Shown here: positions 52,788 through 60,055 of the stretch, piece by piece
How the letters are laid out: every line of letters begins with the position of its first letter
How positions within the stretch are numbered: the stretch's first letter is position 1
DNA from: Oidiodendron maius Zn
Lineage: Eukaryota > Ascomycota > Leotiomycetes > Myxotrichaceae
Assembly (NCBI GenBank): GCA_000827325.1
Contig: KN832872.1
Location: 744,001 to 808,000, forward strand
Length of the DNA stretch: 64,000 bases
Direction of reading: 5' to 3'
The notes under the pieces: model-generated
Seen by the model: the letters and a program-made list of their open reading frames with translations, nothing else
Databases searched by the model: none
Told to the model about the DNA's origin: nothing
Translations under genes and position numbers: made by a program

Positions 52788-53262
52788 CTACTCATCATCT
52801 CCATCCTGGCTCTGGACATATTTCGCCCGAATGTCTTTCCATTGTCGCTGCGCAGAAGATTAGCATAGCGCCACTAGACTGATGAAGGAAACATGCCCCT
52901 TTGTTGATGTTATCCCAGATCCTGTCGGCCGTAATATCGTACGTGCTGTATCGTATTAGCCATCTGCAGTTCTCTTTCGGCTCCTCCCAGGGATCCAGCA
53001 CGTACACCTCGAATGCGAAGGCAGACGCGAACACAACACCAAGGAATACGTAGTTCCTTCGAAAGAGAAAGCTACATATCCAATCAAGTTAGCTCTGTAT
53101 TCTTGTCTTCATTTCAATATATGCGCGGAATCAAATGGGTCGATGGTGCGCAACGGGATCGGGTGACTTGCTTGTAGAGAGGGCGACTGGCGGCAACCTG
53201 GAAAGAAGTCAATTAGCTAAAGTCGACAGCTTGGGAAGCTTGGTAAAGGCAGAATATACCAT
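52788..53262 (-). CDS. QCR9: cytochrome bc1 complex subunit 9
   Basis: Small inner-membrane subunit of respiratory complex III, 67 residues, the normal family size. Five coding exons on the minus strand: 53262-53260 (ATG only), 53197-53172, 53071-53006, 52945-52897 and 52847-52788. The product starts MVAASRPLYNFLFRRNYVF, has one membrane segment (LGVVFASAFAFEV) and continues TADRIWDNINKGRQWKDIRA, all diagnostic for QCR9. Introns are 62, 100, 60 and 49 bp. The second (GCAAGT) and fourth (GCATGT) have GC donors; neighbouring GT sites give the wrong phase. A 79-codon frame at 52795-53034 is partly intron read-through. Divergent from PYM. Confidence 0.9.
52848..52896 (-). other. QCR9: GC-AG intron 4 of QCR9
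   Basis: GGG|GCATGT donor, TGCTAATC branch, GCGCAG acceptor, phase 0, joining NINKG to RQWKDIR. Confidence 0.8.
53072..53171 (-). other. QCR9: GC-AG intron 2 of QCR9
   Basis: Donor AA|GCAAGT, GCTAAC branch, TATGTAG acceptor, phase 2; the split codon AAC gives the N of PLYNFLFRRN. Confidence 0.8.
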
Positions 53263-53623: not shown

Positions 53624-54211
53624 ATGCCTTCTGTCCCGACTCCCTCCAAGGCAGGCATAATAGAAACCAATAGTGGAGAGCGCCACATTCCGTCATCCGT
53701 ACGGCCAGACGGCACAAAACGCAGAGAAATCAAGATTCGCCCGGGATATAAGCCTCCCGAGGATGTCGAAGTATATAAAAATCGCACGGCAGATGCCTTC
53801 AGAAACCGGGGTACCGATGGGGTGCCTGGGGCAGTGGGATTGAAGGACGACAAAGAAGGAAACTCTGCAACCAGCAACAAGAATGCCAAACGGAGAGAAG
53901 CAAGAAAGAAGGCCAAAGCTACGGATGAAACGGGGGATGGTGAGAACGCAAACACAGCGAAAAAGGATATTCAAGAGGACAAGCCCGAGGAAGTTGTGGA
54001 CCCAGCCGCCGAGAAAGAGAAAAAAGTGAGAAATTTAAAGAAGAAGCTGAAGCAGGCCAAGGAATTGAAGGAGAAGAATGACGGTGGTGCTGCGCTGTTG
54101 CCGGAGCAATTTGCCAAAGTTATTAAAATCAGTGAGCTTATACGGGAGCTCGATGCATTAGGATTCGATGCCGAAGGAGAGCCAAAGGCCAAAAAGGAGG
54201 GAGAATCTTAA
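53624..54211 (+). CDS. PYM/WIBG exon-junction-complex partner
   Basis: Partner of the Mago-Y14 heterodimer that in animals helps strip exon-junction complexes from spliced mRNA at the ribosome. Single exon, 195 residues, starting at MPSVPTPSKAGI; the frame is open upstream to 53585 but without ATG. The N-terminal Mago-binding block is SGERHIPSSVRPDGTKRREI followed by KIRPGYKPPEDVEVYKN, very characteristic. The middle is Lys/Glu-rich and disordered, and a C-terminal helical segment (LLPEQFAKVIKISELIREL) matches the conserved PYM tail. Its presence suggests that this fungus keeps the exon-junction complex. Confidence 0.9.
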   Translation: MPSVPTPSKAGIIETNSGERHIPSSVRPDGTKRREIKIRPGYKPPEDVEVYKNRTADAFRNRGTDGVPGAVGLKDDKEGNSATSNKNAKRREARKKAKATDETGDGENANTAKKDIQEDKPEEVVDPAAEKEKKVRNLKKKLKQAKELKEKNDGGAALLPEQFAKVIKISELIRELDALGFDAEGEPKAKKEGES

Positions 54212-55130: not shown

Positions 55131-56740
55131 ATGGACTCCAAAACTGATAAGATTGATGTTTGGCTGGACTGTGATCCAGGTAAGTCCGAGCCGATTTCAA
55201 CCTCCTAGTACTGAAGACGACATTTATTTAATACACCTGGACAGGACACGATGTAAGATCCCAATCAGAGAGTTTATTTTATTCATTAATTTCCATACCT
55301 GTCATATAATTGCAACATGCATCTCGAGCATCTCAGGCTTGGTAATGAAGCAAAAGAGCAATCAACAGGCCTGTACCTCAGCCCGTGCTCTCGCAACTGG
55401 CAGAGGGCTTATGTATATTTTATCCCTGTCGTTGAGATAGCATCGCATTGGTATTAGTTATGACTTAGTAGTTCATTTATTTGCAGTCGTTTTGTCGCAG
55501 AATATTCGAATCTTGCTTCGTTCTGTTTCCCACTTTCCCGAGACCCACTCATGCAATCCTGCTATCAAACCTCATTCAGGAAGTTAAAACCACTGCATAT
55601 GCGATATCTAGTTGGACTTTGCCAATCGTTAGTTTTTCATATTCTGTAACCCCCAACTGATATAATCTTTATTAGGACGTCTTCGCCATCATCTTTGCAG
55701 CGTACCACCCCACTCTGAACCTTCTAGGCATCTCTACCGTCCACGGCAATGCTTCCTTATCTCATACCACCTATAACGCAGGATCTGTGCTCACAGCTAT
55801 CGGTCAGCCATCGATCCCCATATACCCAGGAGCATCCTCCGGACTAGTTAGGCCTGCTGCTCACGCCGTTGATATCCACGGTCAGACAGGATTGGATGGA
55901 ACCACTCTTTTGCCCGTTCCCTTTACCGGCCCCAAATCCGAGCCTGCCATCGATGCAATAGCATCCGCACTTCTCCAAACACCTCCTGGTACTGCTTGGT
56001 TGGTCGCCACTGGAGCCCTCACCAATATTGCTCAAGTCTTTGCTAAATATCCTGCCCTTGCGGGACATATTAAAGGACTGAGTATTATGGGCGGCTCGGT
56101 TGGCTCATCATTTACACCTGCAGTGCTCGGGACTGTCACAGAAAAGGACAGAATTGGGAACTGGAGTCGATGGGCCGAATTCAACATTCTCATCGACCCT
56201 GAAGCTGCCGATCAGATCTTCTCAAACCCAGTTCTTGCCGCTAAGACCGTCCTCATACCTCTCGATGTGACACACCTTGTACTAGCAACCAAGGATGTCC
56301 AAGAGCAGTTACGAAATGGCAAAGAAGGGACTGGTAATACTACAACTCTAAGGACCATGCTTGTCGAACTGTTAGTGTTCTTCGCGAAAACTTATGCCGA
56401 TGTATTTGGAATTACAGATGGGCCACCACTTCATGATCCACTAGCTGTGGCGGTGATTCTAGACGGGGTATCAGGGCATGAAATCCCGTTTTATGATTTC
56501 AAGGGTGAGGTAAATGGGACAAGGACGAAAGAACGGTTTGAGGTTCGTGTAGTCACAGAAGGCACTCATGAAGATGCACAGAACGGCTCGCAAACCGGGA
56601 GGACGATTGTTAGACTGTTGCCCAAGGGAGAGGAGGGCGTGAAGATTCCGAGAGGTCTTAATATCCCTAGGTTTTGGAGCGTGTTAGAAGATTGCGTGAA
56701 AAGAGCTGATGAAGTCAACAAACAGAATAGTATCAAATGA
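55131..56740 (+). CDS. inosine/uridine-preferring nucleoside hydrolase
   Basis: Cleaves ribonucleosides to base and ribose in salvage; closest known type is the Urh1-like uridine nucleosidase. Exons 55131-55179, 55245-55252 (8 nt) and 55676-56740; 373 residues. Splicing builds the catalytic signature DCDPGHDDVFAIIFAA: D13, D15, D19 and D20 fit the Asp cluster that in this family binds calcium and activates water. The microexon supplies part of G17 plus H18 and D19. Further family blocks are STVHGNASLSHTTYNAGSVL, VATGALTNIAQVF, GLSIMGGSV, EFNILIDPEAADQIF and GPPLHDPLAVAVIL. Intron 1 is 65 bp and intron 2 is 423 bp, the longest coding intron in the window. Both have GTAAG donors. Confidence 0.9.
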
Positions 56741-56789: not shown

Positions 56790-58427
56790 CTATGACCCCG
56801 AAGCTTTCCTACCCTCTATAACGCGCATAACATCCTCGACATTGTTTACATCTCCCTTCCGTTTCTTGGGACCTCTCTTCCTCTTTCCTTTTCCTTCGCC
56901 TTTCACGCCATCTTCTGCATTATCATCCATCCCGCGCCATGCCGATAATTTAACTTGCTTCTCCTGAAAATCCTCTTCATCCTCAAATCTACTGCTGCCG
57001 AATCCTATATCTATATCCTGAGCGTCTCGGTCATCTTGTTGTATCATTTTCTTTAGCCGTGCTTGCCTTGCTGCTTCTTCCACGTTCTCCGCTTCTCTGC
57101 CAAGGGGGTTGAGCATTGATGCTCTCTTGATGGCGGCGCGGATGGTGGGGTCGTCTGAAAGTGCCTTGGGAGCTTTCGTTTCTGCCGGCTCCGCGTGGCT
57201 AGCAAAGTAATTCCTCGAGGTAATAGGTAGTGCCGGTCGCGAAGGAGGCCCCATGTTGCCCAATTCTGGTTTCTTTGGCGAGTCCTTTTCGGTTGAATCA
57301 CGCGATACTTCTCCGCCTTCTTCATCAGAGTTGTCCTCGTCTTCCCCAATCCCTGCCAAGGGGTCATAATCGTCCCCCACGTCATCGAAGATATCCGTGT
57401 CCTCCTCCTCCACTACCGCCTTTGGAACATCTGGTACCACCATACCCAAAGGTTTGACATCTTTATCCGGCATGAGAAGCCCACGGCCTTTCTCAGCTTC
57501 TGGCTCCACCAACATCTTCCTAACTTTCCTCTTTTCATTCCCATTCTCATCCACCGTGATCAAAACTTCTCTTCCCTTCTCATCTCTTTTAATCCTAGTC
57601 TCTATACGGCGCTCTCCGACCTTCTTGAATTTTAATCCCAGACTCTGACCTTTTGCTTCCTGTGCTGCCTTTCGCGATGCTTTCAATTCGGCCAGAATCT
57701 GGTCTCGATTCCGTTTCTTTCCGGGTATCATATCTAACGGGGCCATTTCCCCTTTCTTGGTCGTCTTTGCCTTATCCACGGCCTTGACCTCCCTATCCTC
57801 CAACTTCTCAAATTCATCGTCCAGGTTCACTTCGGCATCCAGACCACCCTCGCTATCTCTTTCCCCTTGCCTATTGCTGTTAAGAACATCCTCACCCCTC
57901 TTTACCCTTTCCAATAGCTTCCAATCCAATCCCTTGACTAAATGCGTGCTAGACACGTCGCCCCCCAGTATCTCATCTCTCAATTGTATGAACGTCTCCT
58001 CGTCAATCTGCTGCAGCTTCATCATTTCCTCCAGCGCCCTCACACGTTCTTCTTTTTCATCCGCTGACTCTTCTTGGCGAAGTTTAGAGCGGTCGACATA
58101 GGCGCTGGGTAATTTCGTGCCTTTTGGGGCTGCGCTACTCCGGAACTTCTTGGTCGGCTGTGATGACGAAGACCGCGCTTCAGCTAGTTGCCGCACAAAA
58201 TCGACACCTCCCACAGATCGTCTAGGTATCCTGAGTTAGCATGTCTTCGACTTTGGAAAGGAGAATAGGTACGGTGTCATCGGTATCGAACTGCGCATTC
58301 GAGAACCCAGCGCTGTCGGGACGCCATCCCGCCTCGGGGTTGAGCCGAGCGATGGTTTGCTGTCGGCAGCGGAGGACTGCCTGGCAGGCGTGTCTAGAAC
58401 TAGTTTACGAAACTGGGAGTTGTTCAT
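56790..58427 (-). CDS. RED-like (IK cytokine family) splicing factor
   Basis: Nuclear protein with a RED-like N-terminal region; animal RED works with SMU1 in the activated spliceosome. Minus-strand exons 58427-58273 and 58221-56790, 528 residues. The 51 bp intron (GTACCT, branch GCTAAC, acceptor CCTAG) restores SRMRSSIPMTPRSVGGVDF. The N-terminus MNNSQFRKLVLDTPAR and the block SSIPMTP ... VDFVRQLAEA are family marks, as is LVKGLDWKLLERVK. Most of the protein is charged and probably disordered, with an acidic patch near DDYDPLAGIGEDEDN and a basic KRKRGPKKRKGD near the C-terminus. The frame starting at 58214 alone lacks the conserved first exon. Confidence 0.88.

Positions 58428-60055
<1,628 letters not shown>

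Follow-up and report, generated by a model that had tools for sequence, protein, structure and literature searches.

In Saccharomyces cerevisiae the first coding exon of QCR9 is the AUG alone, 3 bases in length, as listed in Table 2 of PMC3226532; the same paper gives three-base first exons for 20 yeast genes. QCR9 is also cited as an intron-containing gene (Phillips et al. 1990, via PMC9502982), and the yeast QCR9 intron is the study subject of PMC12350175. GC-AG introns are given as 1.009% of fungal introns (PMC7072748). For two filamentous species the figures are 243 of 14305 junctions (Trichoderma longibrachiatum, 1.7%; PMC4324775) and 0.77% (Fusarium graminearum, 2604 introns surveyed; PMC3577648). 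The rate of roughly 1 percent for fungi used in the initial annotation of the locus described here is thus about right (PMC7072748). The usual context of a GC donor is AG/..AAGT, and the F. graminearum survey describes GCAAGT as frequent (PMC3577648).

The QCR9 gene of Oidiodendron maius Zn was found on the minus strand of a 64,000-nucleotide stretch of contig KN832872.1, termed here the window. The protein is of the same family as S. cerevisiae QCR9, and the AUG-only first coding exon followed by an intron in yeast (PMC3226532) is the arrangement preferred here too. The Oidiodendron gene differs from that of yeast in that it carries three further introns, two of which have GC donors. Yeast QCR9 is not known to have an intron other than the one after the AUG. 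Introns 2 and 4 of the Oidiodendron gene combine a GC donor with an AG acceptor, as do the GC-AG introns of F. graminearum and T. longibrachiatum, and the donor of intron 2 is the same GCAAGT that is frequent in the F. graminearum survey (PMC3577648). Two differences from these filamentous fungus introns are seen, however. Two GC-AG introns are present within one four-intron gene, and the intron 4 donor, GGG/GCATGT, is weaker than the usual AG/GCAAGT. Intron 4 is the odd one, its donor being outside the AG/..AAGT context.

Gene model and identity

The gene extends from 53262 to 52788 on the minus strand and consists of five exons (3, 26, 66, 49 and 60 bases) and four introns (62, 100, 60 and 49 bases). 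Positions are those of the window.

53260..53262, minus strand: coding exon 1, predicted from the sequence as ATG alone; arrangement as in S. cerevisiae QCR9 (PMC3226532 Table 2)
53198..53259, minus strand: intron 1, 62 bases, ATG/GTATAT ... TTCCAG, phase 0, branch-like sequence AGCTAATTG
53172..53197, minus strand: exon 2, 26 bases
53072..53171, minus strand: intron 2, GC-AG, 100 bases, CAA/GCAAGT ... ATGTAG, phase 2, branch-like sequence GCTAACT
53006..53071, minus strand: exon 3, 66 bases, inside the Pfam match from the raw genome search
52946..53005, minus strand: intron 3, 60 bases, GGT/GTACGT ... ATACAG, phase 2, branch-like sequence GCTAATAC
52897..52945, minus strand: exon 4, 49 bases
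52848..52896, minus strand: intron 4, GC-AG, 49 bases, GGG/GCATGT ... GCGCAG, phase 0, branch-like sequence TGCTAATC
52788..52847, minus strand: exon 5, 60 bases with the stop codon TAG

The joined coding sequence is 204 bases including the stop, or 67 codons, with the reading frame intact, and encodes the 67-residue protein MVAASRPLYNFLFRRNYVFLGVVFASAFAFEVTYDITADRIWDNINKGRQWKDIRAKYVQSQDGDDE. A Pfam search with the joined protein shows a match to PF05365 (QCR9 / UQCR10) at residues 8-58 with a score of 92.9 bits against a cut-off of 27. Matches in the PDB comprise 36 distinct sequences at E <= 0.001, the best with an E-value of 2e-17. In each of the four introns the branch site is CTAAY-like and the acceptor is YAG. 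Checked against the sequence, the coordinates and junctions of the initial annotation proved exact, and its reading of the locus as QCR9 with five exons and two GC donors is supported. By homology, the product is predicted to be subunit 9 of the mitochondrial cytochrome bc1 complex, and its membership of the complex is read from the same homology.

An exon-by-exon search of the 45.9-Mb genome (58 contigs, four candidates scored) yields a single QCR9 match. In the viral contig and genome contig collections no relative was confirmed, either by protein scans (13 and 93 pattern stretches) or with a three-row alignment (64 and 98 pattern stretches).

The divergent neighbor of QCR9, at 53624-54211 on the plus strand, has its ATG approximately 360 bases away and displays a Mago-binding domain (PF09282, 53 bits), as found in PYM, an exon-junction-complex factor. 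Also close to QCR9, the region 56790-58214 (minus strand) shows the N-terminal domain of RED-like protein (PF07808, 34.7 bits), a family linked to the spliceosome. An inosine-uridine preferring nucleoside hydrolase (PF01156, 204.3 bits) is situated at 55787-56740 (plus strand), and a member of the Thi4 family (PF01946, 366.5 bits) at 58937-60034 (minus strand).

The GC donors of introns 2 and 4

The initial annotation held that introns 2 and 4 must start with GC (GCAAGT and GCATGT), and models restricted to GT do fail. Frame-aware alignment against two QCR9 chains gives a score of 120.5 when both GT and GC donors are allowed and 91.0 with GT alone, and the GT-only alignment loses the usual C-terminal part of QCR9. 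When intron 2 is swapped for a GT-AG intron with the other introns fixed, the best model retains 97.5 of 161 alignment points. The same exchange for intron 4 retains at best 121.5 of 161 points and the RQWK sequence is lost. With both introns exchanged, the best of 5220 combinations reaches 62 of 161. The GT closest to the donor of intron 2, that of GTCACC 4 bases downstream, does not keep the frame set by the ATG plus exon 2. The poor scores of these GT-AG replacements show that, given the homology, the two predicted GC donors are required for the normal QCR9 protein. If any dinucleotide is allowed as a donor, the score is 124.0 as compared with 120.5, with a different solution in the region of intron 2 that includes a three-base exon. 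In our view this solution represents overfitting to the N-terminal columns.

GC donors were also looked for elsewhere in the genome by counts of donor patterns in three contexts, where the counts are of matches and not of distinct introns and the control is the backward pattern. In the context GNAAGT with GCTAAC there are 343 GT matches (control 87), 95 GC (44) and 83 GA (78). In the context AG/GNAAGT with CTAAC, the only one in which GG was counted, there are 57 GT (32), 46 GC (6), 25 GA (27) and 10 GG (24). The context G/GNATGT with GCTAAY gives 181 GT (27), 50 GC (23) and 28 GA (21). Thus GC matches are above the backward controls in all three contexts; GA, and GG in its one context, show no comparable excess. 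The GNAAGT context is weak evidence because the raw GC count of 95 is hardly above the GA count of 83, although the GC control is lower (44 vs 78). Taken as sequence patterns, the counts support the view that GC donors are a real class in this genome. Intron 4 of QCR9 is among the 50 G/GCATGT matches, and intron 2 is too long for the patterns. A local intron census over 264 kb (the window and a further 200 kb of this genome), a sample too small and noisy for a GC-AG rate, gives 10 GT, 5 GC, 2 GA and 3 GG candidate donors at a score of at least 5, with no separation between them.

Two side observations concern GC donors in general. In the pattern AG/GNAAGT...CTAAC...YAG, the number of GC matches (46) nearly equals that of GT (57) and is further above its control (6 vs 32); the combination of GT with this full consensus may be avoided in donors. 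A GC-AG intron candidate, GAG/GCAAGT, with coding-like flanks is found on the same contig as QCR9 (contig C3, 718451-718508, minus strand).

With a GC-AG rate of 1%, four introns would include two or more GC donors with a computed probability of 5.9e-4, and with a rate of 2% the value is 2.3e-3. Two such donors are therefore uncommon for a given gene, but with an assumed gene number of about ten thousand they are to be expected somewhere in the genome. The initial annotation described the pair as unlikely by chance, which is true of any one gene (5.9e-4 with a 1% rate) but not of the whole genome, where some such genes are expected. With this expectation, and since the gene was picked after the fact, its strangeness was overstated. 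In the literature, as judged from titles, abstract openings and selected text, we recognized no account of GC donors in QCR9; as evidence this is weak.

The first exon and other readings of the locus

Ten options for intron 1 were examined. The ATG-only exon and at least three other choices keep the full 161 of 161 points; these others include one GT donor (GTCGAC, a 41-base intron) and two GC donors (GCCTTT and GCTTCC). The score does not separate these choices, as the homology starts only after the first residues. If intron 1 is retained, an in-frame TGA follows after 17 codons. ATG/GTATAT is the best reading of exon 1 but not the only one, and is preferred because of its branch site, its acceptor and the AUG-only exon of S. 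cerevisiae QCR9. The claim that the ATG must stand alone is therefore sound as the best reading, but the arrangement is not strictly forced. Nor is the start-codon-only exon the oddity it had been taken for, as such an exon is already on record for QCR9 of S. cerevisiae (PMC3226532 Table 2). It is thus a trait that the gene shows elsewhere and not a local peculiarity. That the predicted intron position after the start codon is also found in budding yeast suggests an old position, and intron 1 of the two fungi would then be of common ancestry.

A second in-frame ATG is present 105 bases upstream (53367-53365). No stop codon interrupts the frame between 53367 and 53260, so that translation from this ATG would give an exon 1 of 36 codons with the same donor. 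We estimate the probability of 35 open codons by chance at about 0.2, and the open frame thus says little. The longer exon would add 35 residues to the protein. In the 11 PDB chains with the best scores, by contrast, the aligned part is preceded by only 1 to 6 residues, though parts not modelled or not deposited may be missing from these chains. Together with the ATG-only exon of yeast QCR9, this makes the longer exon 1 very unlikely. A slightly longer N-terminus would also result if intron 1 had other ends, e.g. a donor at 53227 and an acceptor at 53187. This leaves the homology score unchanged, as do at least two of the GC-donor choices, but the donor GTCGAC is poor, the intron has just 41 bases and the arrangement is without precedent in yeast QCR9; it appears very unlikely.

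Two non-consensus bases in one gene might, on the other hand, indicate a decayed or strain-specific allele that is poorly spliced, or errors in base calling. However, the coding sequence is intact, the genome displays a single QCR9 match (four candidates scored, exon by exon) and GC-donor patterns are found elsewhere in the same genome, all of which argue against this explanation and make it very unlikely. A very unlikely proposal is that the weak donors of QCR9 are selected as a splicing-level brake on the supply of a bc1 subunit, with GC conserved at both positions in related fungi.

Splicing and consequences for annotation

The locus is best read as an ordinary nuclear QCR9 gene with four short introns, predicted to be U2-type, two of them with a GC donor; we put the probability of this reading at about 0.87. 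The donors of introns 1-4 match the U1 complement CAG/GTAAGT at 5, 7, 5 and 5 of 9 places, the GC donor of intron 2 thus matching at 7/9 and that of intron 4 (GGG/GCATGT) at only 5/9. This weak match of intron 4, like its departure from the AG/..AAGT context, counts against the reading. In the genome, two U1 loci were found with 41 of 795 candidates scored, both below the Rfam cut-off and both with the usual 5′ end, ATACTTACCT. Neither of these two loci is a variant U1 snRNA that would pair with the C, and further loci may be missed at this number of scored candidates. RNA folding of the four introns shows nothing beyond shuffled sequences (z = -0.30, 0.08, 0.86 and 1.17; intron 1 was folded one base short).

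Minor (U12) introns have a donor close to RTATCCTT. Splicing of the QCR9 introns by this route is ruled out by the donors GTATAT, GCAAGT, GTACGT and GCATGT.

In the proposed mechanism, the U1 snRNA would pair with the remainder of the donor and the GC mismatch would be tolerated. Branch sites and acceptors appear normal, and the ordinary U2 spliceosome would remove the introns. All four would be spliced out constitutively to give the 67-residue protein. Removal by the U2 spliceosome in spite of one mismatch is the simplest explanation, and we infer that the introns are indeed spliced and that their use is constitutive. QCR9 with four introns is ordinary biology, each of its oddities being of a known kind.

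Augustus, as used in 2012, does not recognize GC-AG introns (PMC5677156). With gene finders that refuse GC donors, QCR9 would be missed or truncated, and the ATG-only exon adds to the difficulty. The main value of the QCR9 case is thus as a warning for automatic gene annotation. If the GC donors are conserved, QCR9 would in addition be a compact gene for testing why GC donors are kept.
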